From Candidatus Saccharimonadota bacterium (GTDB taxonomy: Bacteria; Patescibacteriota; Saccharimonadia; Saccharimonadales; UBA4665), in contig JAQBRY010000004.1 of NCBI GenBank assembly GCA_028286245.1, positions 248,001-312,000 on the forward strand: DNA of 64,000 nucleotides, given 5' to 3'. Below the pieces are notes generated by a model. That model made no database searches and had not been told where the DNA came from. It saw only the letters and a list, made by a program, of their open reading frames with translations. The first letter of the stretch is position 1. Every line of letters begins with the position of its first letter. The translations under genes and the position numbers were made by a program. This document shows positions 53,755 to 59,635 of the stretch, piece by piece.

Positions 53755-54819
53755 ATGGCTATCACCACCTCTCTGGATACGCTCCGGCATGACATAAATG
53801 CCTTACTGGCAACATATTATAGCGAACAGATCAAGCACGCTCGCCTAGTGAGCCCCCAGTACGCCAATCTGTGGCAATCTATGTGCGAGCTGCAATCGGG
53901 GGGTGGTAAACGACTACGTCCCTATCTGACGGTTGCCCTATATCAAGCACTCGCCGGCACGGAGTATGCGGGCGTGCTCTTCCCGGCAGCCGCGCAAGAA
54001 TTGCTGCACTTTGGTCTCTTAATTCACGACGATATCATTGATCGAGACTATCTGCGCTACGGCCAGAAGAATATTGCGGCGCAGTATTTGGCCGTCTACA
54101 GTGAACATGCCGACAGCCAGCTGTCCGAGCACCTTGCCCTGAGCACGGCCTTACTGGCAGGTGATCTTGCCCTCACGGGCGCTTACCACATGTGCACCCA
54201 GGGCAGCTTAACTCCTCAACAGAAACTCCAAGCAGTTCAGTATCTTGACCAGGGCGTATTTGATGTCATAGGCGGCGAGCTACTGGATACGCAGTCGGTT
54301 ATTAGCTCACCAGAAGCAACCGACAGCTTTACTATCGCTCGCTATAAGACCGCCAGCTACTCTTTTATTGCACCGATGTGCACCGGCGCAGCCCTGGCAG
54401 GCGCCCCCGACGAAGTCATCGGACAGCTGCAACACCTCGGCAGCGTTATGGGCCTGGCCTATCAGCTTGTTGATGACTTGCTGGGCCTATTCGGCGAAAC
54501 AGCAGTGACCGGTAAACCGGTGTTAAGCGATTTAATAGAGGGCAAACATACGTGGCCATTACAGGAAACGCTTCGCCGATCAGGTTCTAGTGACAGGCGT
54601 AAAATAATGGCCGTCCTCAAAACACCAACCTCGTCGCAATCACAGCTAGAATGGGTCCTGGGTAGAGTCACAATCACGGGAGCGCGCACCGCAACTGAGG
54701 AAAAGATCGAAGCCTACTACCATCAAGCCCTGGCCCTTATTGCCACCCTGCCAATCTCGCCAGCCGATCAAATACTATTGAGCAGCTTTGTAAGCGACGC
54801 CCTCCACAGAGAGTACTAG
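53755..54819 (+). CDS. Trans-isoprenyl (polyprenyl) diphosphate synthase
   Basis: 354 aa. Core motifs: [14 protein letters not shown], first Asp-rich motif HDDIID (DDxxD, about residues 91-98), and second [10 protein letters not shown] (about 240), plus KTAS before it. It condenses allylic diphosphates with isopentenyl diphosphate; residues before DDxxD (LLHFGLLIH) do not settle the chain length, though this layout fits GGPP synthase-type enzymes. It is 4 bp from overlapping MsrB (convergent) and 0.6 kb upstream of the regulator-peptide-kinase-cyclase operon, for which it could supply the substrate (inference). An alternative role is quinone or undecaprenyl side-chain supply. Confidence 0.9.
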
Positions 54820-55247
54820 GAAGGCTCAGAGGCGGTAGCCTCAGTTTTGCCAGGTTCAAAGTCTAGAGACAGGGAGTTGATACAGAACCGTTGACCACCT
54901 TTATCTACCGGCCCATCGTCAAAGACATGCCCCAAATGGGCCCCACAGTTACTACAGGTAACCTCTGTACGATGCATACCGAAACTACTATCATCATGCA
55001 GCACTACATGCTCTCGGTTTACAGGGTCCGTAAAGCTCGGCCAGCCGGAACCGGATTCGAATTTAGTATCACTAGTAAAGAGCGTTTGGCCACAGGCCAC
55101 ACAGCGATAGGTGCCATCCTCGTGGTTGTCCACATACTTACCGGTGAATGGTTGTTCAGTTCCTTTTTCGCGGGTAATACGGTACTGCTCAGGCGTAAGC
55201 TTTTGGCGCCAGTACTCATCGGGTTTGTCTTGCATCGTATTCGTCAT
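54816..55247 (-). CDS. msrB: Peptide methionine-R-sulfoxide reductase
   Basis: 143 aa, normal length. [25 protein letters not shown], two zinc-binding CxxC pairs (CVACG and CSNCG), SGSGWPSF and the catalytic Cys in [13 protein letters not shown]. It repairs oxidised Met residues, using thioredoxin. The GGAGG ribosome site is strong. It overlaps the polyprenyl synthase stop by 4 bp. Confidence 0.95.
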
Positions 55248-55418
55248 TGCGTTCCTCCACTGAACTCTAATAAGTATGAACCCTGACTACGCACCGAGTC
55301 AAACATATGCTCCGCAATATTTATTATTATCTCAGGGGTGGCTCAGAATAAAAACATCAAATTCAAAAAGTTAATAATTATTTAATGATTGCCTGCGATA
55401 ATATGCCTAGGAGCACAA

Positions 55419-56144
55419 ATGAAAGTACTACTTATAGAAGATGACCACGGCATTAGCCTCGCCCTCCGCCAAGCCCTTTCAACGGTTTATGAACTGACGT
55501 TTGCTCATAATGGCCTCGACGGTATTAAAAAAGCAACTTCCCGATCAGGTGAGTACGATATTATCTTACTCGACCTTAACCTACCCGATATGCACGGTCT
55601 GGAAGTTTGTAAACGACTGCGTGAATACGGCATAGACACCCCTATACTCATACTAACCGCCGACAGCGCGGTGCTCCGTAAAATTACCCTGCTCGATGCC
55701 GGCGCGGATGATTACCTGACTAAGCCCTTTAGCTTGGGTGAACTTAAGGCCAGAATCCGTGTACTAGACCGCCGAGCCGGGGCTATTAAAGAAATGACCT
55801 CGCAACATATTACCGTACACGACTTAACAATTAACGGCGTCACGCGCATGGCCGAACGGGCGGGCAAAATGATTAAGCTGCGCCGAAAAGAATTTGCCAT
55901 GCTTGAGTGCCTTATGCAAAATGCCGGTTCTGTTGTAACCCGTGAAATCCTCTCCAACCATGCTTGGCCTAACACTGATGACCCCTGGACGAACACTATA
56001 GATGTGCACATAAAATACCTACGTGATAAAATTGACCGTCCTTTTGACACGCCGTTAATTAAAACGGTTCATGGCCTTGGCTACAAACTCGAGGCGCCGC
56101 GAGCGGTAGCAAATAACATAAATAAGGGGGTACAACATGAGTGA
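55419..56144 (+). CDS. OmpR/PhoB family response regulator
   Basis: 241 aa. Receiver (1-115) with IEDD, phospho-acceptor D52 (LLDLNLP) and K102 (LTKPFS). The C-terminal winged helix (about 130-225) has LRRKEFAMLECLMQNAGSVVTREIL and HIKYLRDKID-TVHGLGYKL, the OmpR/PhoB signature. The start is set by AGGAG before the ATG. The last codons contain AAGGGGGT and the start of the next gene, so the regulator, peptide and kinase are linked. It is the expected partner of the kinase at 56305. Confidence 0.93.
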   Translation: MKVLLIEDDHGISLALRQALSTVYELTFAHNGLDGIKKATSRSGEYDIILLDLNLPDMHGLEVCKRLREYGIDTPILILTADSAVLRKITLLDAGADDYLTKPFSLGELKARIRVLDRRAGAIKEMTSQHITVHDLTINGVTRMAERAGKMIKLRRKEFAMLECLMQNAGSVVTREILSNHAWPNTDDPWTNTIDVHIKYLRDKIDRPFDTPLIKTVHGLGYKLEAPRAVANNINKGVQHE

Positions 56145-56256
56145 ACTACTACAAGCAGTGCTTTCTGATCAGTCAGTCCGATCAGAAAACATGCTACCAG
56201 TCGCCGCTGCGAAAGCAGCCGACAAGTTCAATCCTTGGGCAACCAAGGTAGACTAA
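56137..56256 (+). CDS. 39-aa peptide ORF between response regulator and kinase (possible signal precursor)
   Basis: Overlaps the regulator's end by 8 bp and has its own near-perfect Shine-Dalgarno site (AAGGGGGT, 56124-56131, 5 nt before ATG). It starts MSELLQAVLSDQ, an amphipathic helix, and ends FNPWATKVD with a single Trp six residues from the C-terminus; no Cys and no signal peptide. Position and form resemble ComX-type precursors, which have a hydrophobic helical N-terminus and a Trp near the C-terminus that becomes isoprenylated by ComQ. Similarity is in layout only; homology is not shown. A 7-bp inverted repeat (TCTGATC/GATCAGA, 56164-56186) lies inside the ORF. It could also be a coupling leader peptide. 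Confidence 0.6.
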   Translation: MSELLQAVLSDQSVRSENMLPVAAAKAADKFNPWATKVD

Positions 56257-56264
56257 ATAAAAAA

Positions 56265-56288
56265 GCGGACCGGCAATTGCCGGTCCGC
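56265..56288. terminator. Perfect 24-bp GC-rich palindrome between peptide and kinase genes
   Basis: Self-complementary along its whole length (GCGGACCGGCAA and its complement). It follows AAAAAA, so on the minus strand it would be a terminator with a T tract; on the plus strand no T run follows. It lies 9 nt after the peptide stop and 4 nt before the kinase -10 box. It may stabilise or end part of the peptide transcript. Confidence 0.6.
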
Positions 56289-56304
56289 AGTCTATACTAT
56301 GATC

Positions 56305-57699
56305 ATGAACACATCCTTAACCCTCCGTCCGCTCATCCAAATATGCAATCGACGGTTTATTACCCCCCGCAGCAACACCATTGATGACCGGCGACAAGAA
56401 TACATCCTTAACATCCTCCTCTTCTCGTTATCACTGTTCGCAATCCTGGCGCTTCTCATTAGCGGCTATAATTATTTTTTTACCAATCTAGTACTTAATG
56501 CCACCAGTCTGGTGTCGACCGCTCTTGTTTGCGCTTTTATATTTGGACTACTATTTGCCTCGCGTAAGGGGCATTTTAAATTTGCGGCCGTTATCTTTAT
56601 AGGCATACTGAGTTTTGCCGCACTACAGCTCTCACTCCGCTGGAGCTTTGAGCTACAGCAGGCCCTTCTCACCTTTGCACTGGTTATAGTAATTGCCGGA
56701 GTAACGCTAAATGCCCGGATTGCCCTTATATTTGGCAGTGTACTAGCCGGCTCATTTTTACTGATAGGTTTCTTGCAATCCAATATGACTCTAACGCCTG
56801 ATACCAGCTGGCAAAACTCCCGGCTTAATTTTAGCGATACCCTGGGCTACGCCGTCACAATGCTAGTCATCGCAGTCGTTTCGTGGTTGGCTAATCGTGA
56901 GATCGACCGCTCCCTCAAGCGAGCTCGTTTGAGCGAGGCTGCCCTGGCAAAAGAACGCGATAATTTAGAGATCAAGGTACTGCAACGAACGCATGAATTA
57001 GAAGAAGCACAGTTGGTTCGTACAATGGAGCTTCGCCGCTTTGCGGAGTTTGGCCGTTTGAGCGCAAACCTGCTGCACGAAGTTGCAAATCCACTAACAG
57101 CCGCTTCGCTTAACTTAGAGCAGCTCGATTCCGAAGAACATTCAAATCTGGTTATTCAGGCCCGTAAGAACCTGCGCCACATGGAGCGCTACATTGATGC
57201 CGCCCGTAAGCAGCTAAAGGGTGAGGGCGAAGTCACCAAGTTTATGGTTCGTAAAGAAGTGGCTCAGTTAATGCGTATCGTGATTCCCCGGGCTGAACGC
57301 TCCCATGTAAAGATAAGCGTAATAATTCAGGGCCAGCCTAAGCTGCATGGAGACCCTGTCAAGTTTAACCAACTGCTGGCAAATCTGGTGCTCAATGCCG
57401 TAGAATCCTACGACGGCCTGGCTCGACCAAAAAGCATGCGGCAAATAGACGTCGCTATAGAACAGATTGAGTCGGCTTTGCACTGTACCATCCACGATAA
57501 CGGCAAAGGTATTGAGCCCGGCGAACTTTCTAAAATATTTGAACCGTTTTACAGCACCAAGTCCGAAAATAACCGAAGTATGGGTATTGGCCTTGCAATG
57601 GTTAAGCAATTTGTAGAGCAGGATTATAACGGCAACATCAGCGTTATGAGCGATCAAACCGGCACAGAGTTCAGGCTTGTGCTCCACTCGGTAAAATAA
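56305..57699 (+). CDS. Sensor histidine kinase with about six membrane helices
   Basis: 464 aa. Membrane helices occupy about residues 34-195 with very short loops, so the sensor has no large extracellular domain; this is typical for detecting peptides or lipids in the membrane. A coiled-coil linker (200-245) precedes the H-box RLSANLLHEVANPLTAASLNLEQL with H258. The ATPase domain shows NLVLNAVESY (N box), HDNGKGIEP (G1), FEPFYSTK and GIGLAMVKQF (G2). TATACT ends 6 nt before the ATG at 56305; the ATG at 56299 lies too close to it. The regulator at 55419 is its likely partner. The cyclase-like gene begins 1 nt after its stop codon. Confidence 0.92.
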   Translation: MNTSLTLRPLIQICNRRFITPRSNTIDDRRQEYILNILLFSLSLFAILALLISGYNYFFTNLVLNATSLVSTALVCAFIFGLLFASRKGHFKFAAVIFIGILSFAALQLSLRWSFELQQALLTFALVIVIAGVTLNARIALIFGSVLAGSFLLIGFLQSNMTLTPDTSWQNSRLNFSDTLGYAVTMLVIAVVSWLANREIDRSLKRARLSEAALAKERDNLEIKVLQRTHELEEAQLVRTMELRRFAEFGRLSANLLHEVANPLTAASLNLEQLDSEEHSNLVIQARKNLRHMERYIDAARKQLKGEGEVTKFMVRKEVAQLMRIVIPRAERSHVKISVIIQGQPKLHGDPVKFNQLLANLVLNAVESYDGLARPKSMRQIDVAIEQIESALHCTIHDNGKGIEPGELSKIFEPFYSTKSENNRSMGIGLAMVKQFVEQDYNGNISVMSDQTGTEFRLVLHSVK

Positions 57700-57700
57700 T

Positions 57701-59635
57701 ATGAAGGGTGCATCGTATTCTCGTCCTAAAGCGCTGGCATACCTTAAGAAGATGCAGGCCGCAGATGGGTCATTTTTAGGGCAGGCTAGCCAGCATACGC
57801 ACAATTTTAGCCAAAGCCGAGTTCACTACACCAGCTTTTTTACGAGCCTAATTGTTTGCAGTCTTGCCGAAATAAAGGGGGCCAGTAGTATTACCCAGAA
57901 AGCGGCCACTTTTTTACTAACGCAAAAAAGTGCCGATTGGTCCTGGAACTACTGGATTACCGGTAGTCCAGATGATCAGAAACGCCCCTACCCCGATGAT
58001 TTGGATGATACAGCCTGCGCGCTCAGTGCACTTTATTTGACCGTTCCAAGAACAGTGGATGGCGCGGTGCTAGGAAACTTTGCACGCCAACTTATCAGCC
58101 AAGAAACTGCGGTTGGCGGCCCATACACCACTTGGCTAGTACAGCCAGCTGCCGAAGAAACCTGGCGTGATGTAGATTGTGCCGTTAATGCTAATATTGG
58201 CTATTTTTTATCGCTCCACAATGTCACCGTGCCAGGGCTGACAAGCTACATTGAATCACTGCTTAGTAGTGATAAACTTCAGTCGCGCTACTATATAGGC
58301 GCGCTGCCAACGCTGTATTTTATTGCACGCTGGTATAAGGGGCCGGCTCAAGCAAAGCTCAGGCAATTAATTGCCCAGCAGCTGCACAATGAGCAGTATG
58401 CTAGTGATCCGCTGGCACTAGCCTTACTATTGGCTGCTGGCTGCCGAGCTGATATTTCTAAAGTTAAGCTAGCCGGCGTATACCACCTGTTGCTTGGCCT
58501 GTACCAGCAAGATCACTGGGCCGCAAGTGCGCTTTACAACGAGCCTCCCGTCGATGGCAAAAATTACTACGCCGGCTCAACTGCATTAACGACAGCCCTA
58601 GCGCTCGAGGCGCTTGACCTGTTTGAAACTTTATCAACAACAGAGGTGGAAACACCACCGGCACTTAAGCCCATCATAGTACCAGATTTGCCAGCCGGCA
58701 GTGATTTACGCAGTAACTATGCTAGCTTGATTCGTGGTGTCATCACGGCAGACGTCCACAACGAAGTCACCCGCATTGGCACCGTCATAGCTCAAGCCTG
58801 CGGTGCCCGATTGGCCCCTGCTCAGCTAAGCCACTTCAATCGCGCCAGCGTAAACGGTTGGGCCGCCTACAGTATTTATGATGATATTATTGATGGCCAG
58901 GTTGATCCGGCGTTGGTAGGGGCAGCCAATGCTGCCCAGCGCCGGATGCTCCATCACTTTAACGCTGCCCTCCCCGACAACCCTCAGTACGCCCAGCTGG
59001 TTGCTCGCACAATGGATGGCATTGATGCCGCCAACACCTGGGAGGCCGTGAGGGCTCGGGCTAAGGTCGCAGACGGTATTGTAAGCTTGGCACGCTTGCC
59101 GCACTACGGCAGCTACCGGCAACTTGCCCGGCGATCATGGGGCCATATCTTGGCACCGATTGGGGTGCTCGTATCGCTCGGCTATGCTGCATCCGGCAAC
59201 GAAGTAACACAACTCTGTCGATTTTTTAGACACTATATTATTGCTCGCCAGTTAAATGATGATGCCCACGATTGGGAAGATGATCTACGAGCAGGTATTA
59301 TAACGGCGGTGATTGTACAGCTTTTAGATGATGCCGGTCTTTCACCGCCAGTGCAGATGACTCTTTCCCGTGATTTGGATAGCCTTAAAGCCTGTTTTTG
59401 GAACTATACCATCCTCTCTGTCACTGCTGATATTGCGCATCACTGCAGTGCCGCCCGGAAGGCGCTGGCAGCCTGTGCGTTTATAGTAGAGCCAAAAGTG
59501 TTAGAAGGCTGGATTAGCAACCTGGAACAATCGGCTGATGCTGCCCTCCACGAACGTCAAGAAGCAAAAGCCTTTATGCAACACTACGCCGGCGAGACCA
59601 ATAAAAAAGCTAGCGTCCGCTCGACTGCAAGCTAG
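57701..59635 (+). CDS. Two-domain terpene cyclase/isoprenyl synthase-like enzyme (DxDD and DDxxD)
   Basis: 644 aa. The N-terminal 310 residues form an alpha/alpha-barrel cyclase domain (LAYLKKMQAADGSFLG is QW-like) with the class II motif DLDDTACAL (D100-L-D102-D103), which in diterpene cyclases protonates a prenyl diphosphate. The C-terminal half (about 340-640) is isoprenyl-synthase-like: IYDDIIDG (D394-D398) and RQLNDDAHDW (Q517-D524, the QxxDDxxD form). One protein could thus cyclise and then ionise or transfer a prenyl group. It follows the kinase by 1 nt, so it is in the two-component operon. Alternative: only one site is active. I know of no such enzyme in Saccharibacteria. Confidence 0.8.
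   Translation: MKGASYSRPKALAYLKKMQAADGSFLGQASQHTHNFSQSRVHYTSFFTSLIVCSLAEIKGASSITQKAATFLLTQKSADWSWNYWITGSPDDQKRPYPDDLDDTACALSALYLTVPRTVDGAVLGNFARQLISQETAVGGPYTTWLVQPAAEETWRDVDCAVNANIGYFLSLHNVTVPGLTSYIESLLSSDKLQSRYYIGALPTLYFIARWYKGPAQAKLRQLIAQQLHNEQYASDPLALALLLAAGCRADISKVKLAGVYHLLLGLYQQDHWAASALYNEPPVDGKNYYAGSTALTTALALEALDLFETLSTTEVETPPALKPIIVPDLPAGSDLRSNYASLIRGVITADVHNEVTRIGTVIAQACGARLAPAQLSHFNRASVNGWAAYSIYDDIIDGQVDPALVGAANAAQRRMLHHFNAALPDNPQYAQLVARTMDGIDAANTWEAVRARAKVADGIVSLARLPHYGSYRQLARRSWGHILAPIGVLVSLGYAASGNEVTQLCRFFRHYIIARQLNDDAHDWEDDLRAGIITAVIVQLLDDAGLSPPVQMTLSRDLDSLKACFWNYTILSVTADIAHHCSAARKALAACAFIVEPKVLEGWISNLEQSADAALHERQEAKAFMQHYAGETNKKASVRSTAS

Follow-up and report, generated by a model that had tools for sequence, protein, structure and literature searches.

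Organization of the locus

The window, that is, the whole stretch of 64,000 nucleotides that was analyzed, comes from a genome of 1.13 Mb; within named collections, its closest relatives belong to the Saccharibacteria and other Patescibacteria. It carries a fused enzyme together with a short peptide gene, a histidine kinase, and a response regulator, preceded by a canonical polyprenyl diphosphate synthase, with the following features:

53755..54819 (+): canonical polyprenyl diphosphate synthase (PF00348, 1e-44; GGKRLRP, DDIID, and K-T present)
55419..56144 (+): response regulator of the OmpR type, receiver plus winged helix (PF00072, 7e-25; PF00486, 4e-24)
56137..56256 (+): candidate precursor-peptide gene, 39 amino acids, MSELLQAVLSDQSVRSENMLPVAAAKAADKFNPWATKVD; GGGGG before the ATG; overlaps the regulator stop
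56299..57699 (+): histidine kinase, 466 amino acids, with approximately six transmembrane helices in the sensor (HATPase_c, 1e-20)
57701..59635 (+): fused class II cyclase/trans-IDS-like prenyltransferase (predicted), 644 amino acids, one open frame
57701..58633 (+): predicted TC-beta class II cyclase domain, residues ~1-311, with D100/D102 (DxDD) and Y197-Y198
58655..59593 (+): predicted trans-IDS-like (ComQ/PalQ/ChrPC-like) domain, residues ~319-631, with D394/D398 and Q517-D520-D521-D524

The regulator frame was listed from a TTG at 55389, and its likely start is the ATG at 55419. In the window, the ATG of the enzyme lies one base after the stop codon of the kinase.

The fused enzyme and its two domains

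The preliminary description of this DNA proposed a single protein joining a class II cyclase to an isoprenyl-synthase-like domain, and positions 57701 to 59635 do form a single frame with the DxDD, DDxxD, and QxxDDxxD motifs all where it had placed them: D100-L-D102-D103 falls within PYPDDLDDTACAL, and the C-terminal motifs are D394-D395-I-I-D398 and Q517-L-N-D520-D521-A-H-D524. Homologues bearing both sets of motifs were also found, as 33 full-length relatives keep the DxD pair together with the C-terminal Asp motifs. Among them, D100, D102, and T104 are invariant in the N-terminal half, L101 and D103 are at least 90% conserved, and D394, D398, Q517, D520, D521, D524, W525, and D528 are invariant in the C-terminal half.

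Searches of Pfam/NCBIfam with the single protein returned sub-threshold squalene cyclase/toroid matches in the first 110 residues and no polyprenyl synthetase match for the C-terminus, and phmmer with the single protein against the PDB gave nothing relevant. A family profile was needed to reach PDB relatives; it matched drimenol synthase with an E-value of 3e-22 over profile positions 18-299, while the C-terminal profile alone found no relative in the PDB by sequence. Both halves were therefore compared by structure as well, with an alignment-based AlphaFold model of the full enzyme (pLDDT 90.4). Residues 1-309 superpose on the drimenol synthase AsDMS (9mhs, Z 32.6, 2.6 Å over 287 residues), followed by MstE (Z 26.4) and squalene-hopene cyclase (SHC; Z 25.9), which places the N-terminal half inside the terpene cyclase clan. 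It is best matched, and predicted to act, as a monodomain class II cyclase of the TC-beta kind seen in drimenol synthase and MstE; the class II assignment of the preliminary description holds by motif and fold, the domain being an alpha-barrel TC-beta monodomain rather than of the beta-gamma CPS type.

In AsDMS, D331/D333 and Y426-Y427 are catalytic or substrate-binding residues, as determined by mutation (PMC12365925). In a profile alignment, which pairs positions without superposed coordinates, the acid pair corresponds to D100/D102 and the Tyr pair to Y197-Y198 of the CPR enzyme, whereas the diphosphate-binding R378 and R380 of AsDMS fall opposite W155 and D157 and are not kept. The fusion partner differs too, as AsDMS joins its TC-beta domain to a HAD phosphatase (HAD-TC-beta).

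In the same model, residues 319-613 match polyprenyl diphosphate synthases (4jyx, Z 23.2, 2.8 Å over 274 residues), and the C-terminal domain modelled alone (pLDDT 92.3) gave the same hit with Z 22.8; no class I terpene synthase was among the 50 best-aligned folds. None of 19 aligned sequences of the domain has the IPP-site signatures, namely GGKRxRP, K-T, and an Arg following the first motif. GGKRLRP, K-T, and R101 are present in the canonical synthase of the window, whose GGKR falls opposite HNEVT of the C-terminal domain in an unfiltered, low-confidence alignment. Profile comparison between the two is weak (E 0.002-0.013; hhalign probabilities 13% and 3%), with QxxDD pairing with QxxDD. In fungal IDS-like enzymes, loss or change of the equivalent Arg abolishes chain elongation (PMC7484799). 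Because GGKRxRP and K-T are absent, the C-terminal domain is probably not a chain-elongating synthase. The IPPS-type C-terminus proposed earlier is thus borne out in its fold (Z 22.8-23.2) and Asp motifs and not in its IPP-binding residues. These missing residues, together with the conserved neighbors described below, point to a tryptophan prenyltransferase resembling ComQ, PalQ, and ChrPC. The Gln before the second Asp motif also occurs in canonical synthases and is hence not diagnostic of this class.

A fusion of prenyltransferase and class II cyclase is known from the fungal PvCPS (PMC8190136), whose prenyltransferase has the IDS fold and makes GGPP and whose cyclase is beta-gamma. The C-terminal domain matches its prenyltransferase domain (7s0m, Z 21.6), and with a class II domain also present, the CPR protein could be read as a comparable assembly line, with a C-terminal domain producing GGPP or FPP as substrate for cyclisation by the N-terminal one. 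This reading is highly improbable: the IPP-binding signatures are absent, a separate canonical synthase is encoded in 23 of 25 family-bearing genomes and forms part of the locus in 12 of 51 cases, the C-terminal domain persists in lineages that lack DxDD, and the adjoining peptide is left unexplained.

A conserved peptide gene between regulator and kinase

The gap between regulator and kinase is usually 100-400 bases long, and when these gaps were aligned, one frame was seen to read F-x-P-W. A search of all gaps found an ORF of 35-40 codons in nearly every locus, encoding a leader MxxLIxxILTDxxxR, a hydrophobic middle, Pro-Trp, and then 0-7 variable residues. The leader Arg is kept in 46/46 peptides, the leader Leu in 45/46, the Trp in 47/47, and the Pro of PW in 41/47; because the search required a Trp close to the end, the constancy of this residue is in part a product of selection, while Arg, Leu, and Pro were not criteria. 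An ATG-initiated ORF of 30-65 codons with PW near its end was present in 34 of 40 gaps, as opposed to 0.2% of dinucleotide shuffles. Moreover, pN was lower than pS in all 33 pairs above 50% identity, the ratio being rough because synonymous changes approach saturation. The ORF is a genuine, conserved gene for a peptide with a C-terminal Trp. Five of the peptides, all very short and divergent, gave no match to the ComX family in Pfam/NCBIfam.

A structured RNA between regulator and kinase was also considered. Positions 56145-56294, which span the bulk of the peptide gene plus the gap that follows, fold far better than shuffles (z -9.1), and L035 and L064 fold well too; this candidate was set aside, as most other relatives do not show such folding (z about -2 to +1) and the regulator-kinase stretch has no match in Rfam. 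A perfect palindrome, GCGGACCGGCAATTGCCGGTCCGC, lies after the peptide gene at 56265-56288.

Two-component partners

When the flanking genes were clustered, a histidine kinase and an OmpR-type regulator recurred at almost every locus; this clustering found neither an exporter nor a protease gene conserved near the cassette. By profile searches, 47 of 51 loci have the kinase directly upstream of the enzyme and in the same orientation, in most cases touching or overlapping it, and the regulator lies upstream of the kinase on the same strand in 38 of 51. The kinase has six hydrophobic peaks between residues 35 and 199 with no obvious extracellular domain, and its H260, N362, N366, and D400 are invariant in eight aligned kinases. 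In 265 of 325 pairs, conservation is lower in the sensor than in the kinase part. The sensor domain occurs in 15/16 enzyme-bearing relatives versus 4/83 others (Fisher p 3e-13, a value that ignores kinship).

Distribution in CPR bacteria and loss of the DxDD motif

A scan of one contig collection recovered 30 relatives, in records named Saccharibacteria, Levy-, Davies-, Colwell-, Shapiro-, Moranii-, Magasanik-, Uhr-, Doudna-, Dojka-, and Paceibacteria. Of 380 genomes sampled across the phylum, 22 gave a match with the family profile, in a few cases a weak or partial one. The four genes occur together in CPR genomes of many lineages. A plasmid search gave two weak N-terminal matches only, and phage records gave no match. 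The full regulator-peptide-kinase-enzyme cassette was also seen on L130, a 53-kb contig binned as viral (IMG/VR), which is probably a CPR fragment; carriage of its cassette by a mobile element is possible.

The DxDD motif or most of the cyclase domain is lost in L012-L016, L022-L029, L055, L057, L060, and L061, all of which keep the C-terminal motifs, and several DxDD-less relatives retain a GGPY stretch. L095 and L097 have a DxDD with a variant Thr, as judged by eye; in counting DxDD states, L054 was masked and L058 is truncated. On a tree of the C-terminal domain with many weak branches, the DxDD state changes at least twice and most parsimoniously three times. Since the C-terminal motifs and the peptide persist in lineages without DxDD, the C-terminal domain appears to be the core activity and cyclisation an addition. 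The cyclase-half profile also matched two alpha-barrel-like proteins of 318 and 340 amino acids (L126:3790-4743 and L128:3657-4676) with no adjoining kinase or prenyltransferase.

Comparison with known systems

The ComQXPA system of Bacillus (ComQ, ComX, ComP, ComA) consists of an IDS-derived Trp prenyltransferase, a short precursor bearing a Trp close to its C-terminus, a membrane kinase, and a regulator (PMC5331326). The CPR loci have the same parts list, with enzyme, peptide, membrane kinase, and regulator encoded together as in ComQXPA loci. They differ in the fusion of the enzyme to a class II cyclase, the order regulator-peptide-kinase-enzyme, the OmpR-type regulator, and their occurrence in Patescibacteria; the CPR peptide is about 35-40 residues long instead of 53-58, with a conserved leader and usually Pro-Trp. 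The second motif of ComQ needs Asn or Gly at its first position (PMC5331326), whereas that of the CPR enzyme is QxxDDxxDW, a full DDxxD with Asp first and no NDxxx/GDxxx pseudo-SARM. Membership in ComQ proper is not claimed; that the cassette works like ComQXPA would best explain the set of genes.

A further comparison is with PalQ/PalX/PalP of Paenibacillus alvei, which comprises a kinase, a precursor with C-terminal Trp, and a prenyltransferase of the IDS superfamily with both Asp motifs (PMC10853753). Because PalQ keeps Asp in the second motif, the Asp-first motif of the CPR enzyme is compatible with the reading as a Trp prenyltransferase. Parts list and both Asp motifs are shared, but the P. 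alvei system has no cyclase domain and has a leader of the nitrile-hydratase type, and the Trp of PalX must be C-terminal, while that of the CPR peptide is followed by 0-7 residues.

In ChrPC and NctPC, Trp is first modified by a prenyltransferase domain, after which the attached chain is cyclised by a cyclase domain; the prenyltransferase of ChrPC is trans-IDS-like, and the cyclase of NctPC is described as MstE-like (PMC13290415). They thus share with the CPR protein, as interpreted here, a Trp prenyltransferase and a cyclase in one polypeptide. The CPR cyclase is N-terminal and the prenyltransferase C-terminal, unlike the order of ChrPC/NctPC, which was inferred from their names, and the two-component system belongs to the CPR cassette. 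The CPR enzyme may best be regarded as a ChrPC-like protein with reversed domain order, a comparison that uses descriptions of ComQ, PalQ, ChrPC, and NctPC.

The fusion of DxDD and IPPS-type domains in a CPR bacterium had been put forward as new; for the fusion in itself, PvCPS (PMC8190136) and ChrPC (PMC13290415) are precedents. What appears to be new here is its CPR-wide occurrence together with the surrounding signaling cassette, ChrPC/NctPC being compared from a review description. Literature on quorum sensing or terpene enzymes in CPR, as covered by an open-access library, yielded nothing on such a system.

Separable halves and competing explanations

In three genomes of a single genus (G148, G227, and G295), the enzyme is immediately preceded by the peptide, and the sensor has no match genome-wide. 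In G092, of the same genus as G148, there are only the regulator and kinase, with no room for the peptide. The two arrangements occupy one syntenic locus beside metK with flanks 87-88% identical, which holds peptide and enzyme in G148 (L076) and regulator and kinase in G092 (L119). Regulator-kinase pairs with no gap between them were also found in G038 and G007, the latter pair sitting where the window has the full cassette, and G001, from the genus of the window, has a regulator-kinase pair and a peptide remnant with a stop. All four genomes with the pair only (G092, G038, G007, and G001) lack the enzyme. In these small numbers of incomplete genomes, the peptide is kept or lost with the enzyme, separately from the sensor. 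That the peptide follows the enzyme and not the sensor would be expected of an enzyme acting on the peptide and of a pair able to receive the signal of others.

A free-terpene signal had been the first hypothesis, drawn from the adjacency of the kinase, and was demoted when the conserved FNPWA-like stretch in the gap proved to be a gene. In that explanation, the protein is a free-terpenoid synthase, a class II step followed by ionisation of the class I type giving a diffusible terpene; the two-component system senses this product or controls its synthesis, and the peptide gene is something else. The class II TC-beta match, the retained Mg motifs, and the kinase adjacency would all fit, as would the lack of IPP-site residues, which is also found in IDS-derived terpene synthases; these may keep the second Asp motif (PMC7484799). 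The explanation is nevertheless improbable, as it leaves unaccounted for a conserved peptide with an invariant Trp that is lost or kept with the enzyme; that known class I terpene synthases are not among the 50 best-aligned folds is weak evidence in the same direction.

A peptide-modifying enzyme whose product is a bioactive peptide, for example against host or competitor cells, with the two-component system controlling production, is rather unlikely but fits several observations. Enzymes of the ChrPC/NctPC kind make modified peptides with no signaling role stated (PMC13290415), and the three genomes above have enzyme and peptide without sensor. A receiver role makes it easier to understand why regulator-kinase pairs survive without enzyme and peptide; the contiguity of kinase, peptide, and enzyme resembles that in ComQXPA, and the sensor is the less conserved part of the kinase (265/325 pairs). 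None of these three points is decisive.

A probable peptide-pheromone cassette with a built-in cyclase

The locus is probably a peptide-pheromone cassette of the ComQXPA type, rebuilt with a fused terpene cyclase. In the proposed pathway, a separate polyprenyl synthase would provide a C15-C20 prenyl diphosphate, which the C-terminal domain would ionise via Mg2+ at D394/D398 and the second Asp motif and couple to the peptide's Trp. The TC-beta domain at the N-terminus would then protonate the attached chain with D102 and cyclise it, while relatives without DxDD would make a linear prenyl-Trp version. Prenylation before cyclisation is favored for two reasons: FPP that had been cyclised first would no longer carry its allylic diphosphate, and the diphosphate-holding Arg residues of AsDMS are not kept. 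The C-terminal core of the peptide would be cut off and exported, and the membrane sensor of the kinase would bind the modified peptide, leading to phosphorylation of the regulator.

More broadly, the balance tips slightly toward many CPR lineages communicating by short peptides with a polycyclic terpene on the Trp (or a linear prenyl chain where DxDD is lost), made by the fused enzyme and read by a dedicated six-transmembrane kinase, with producer-only and receiver-only strains and with isoprenoids that may come from hosts or neighbors. If right, this would give the ultra-small, mostly uncultured CPR bacteria a defined form of cell-cell signaling built on a molecule that can be tested, an unexpected means of communication for minimal bacteria. 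It would widen the range of prenyl-tryptophan pheromones beyond Bacillota to include Patescibacteria, where the modifying enzyme contains a terpene cyclase, and would explain as a pheromone-modifying enzyme what otherwise counts as an odd terpene synthase. Some fifty natural pairs of peptide and enzyme, including ones that lack the cyclase motif, would also become available for studying peptide terpenylation.

Isoprenoid supply

The canonical synthase at 53755..54819 is the only PF00348 gene found in the window genome and likely supplies the prenyl donor. Among relatives, such a synthase is present in 15/16 genomes with the enzyme versus 39/83 without it (p 6e-4, kinship ignored). HMG-CoA reductase was found in 0 of 25 family genomes and GcpE in 0 of 10; with markers of both IPP routes thus missing, the isoprenoid of the signal may be drawn from a host or neighbor. 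Retention of the system in 1-Mb genomes with no recognised IPP pathway would, if the pheromone reading is right, raise the question of the isoprenoid source. On the minus strand between the synthase and the regulator, a 143-amino-acid ORF with an MsrB-like look (54816-55247) lies near the cassette, as do its homologues in L035 and L054, a proximity that may be due to chance.
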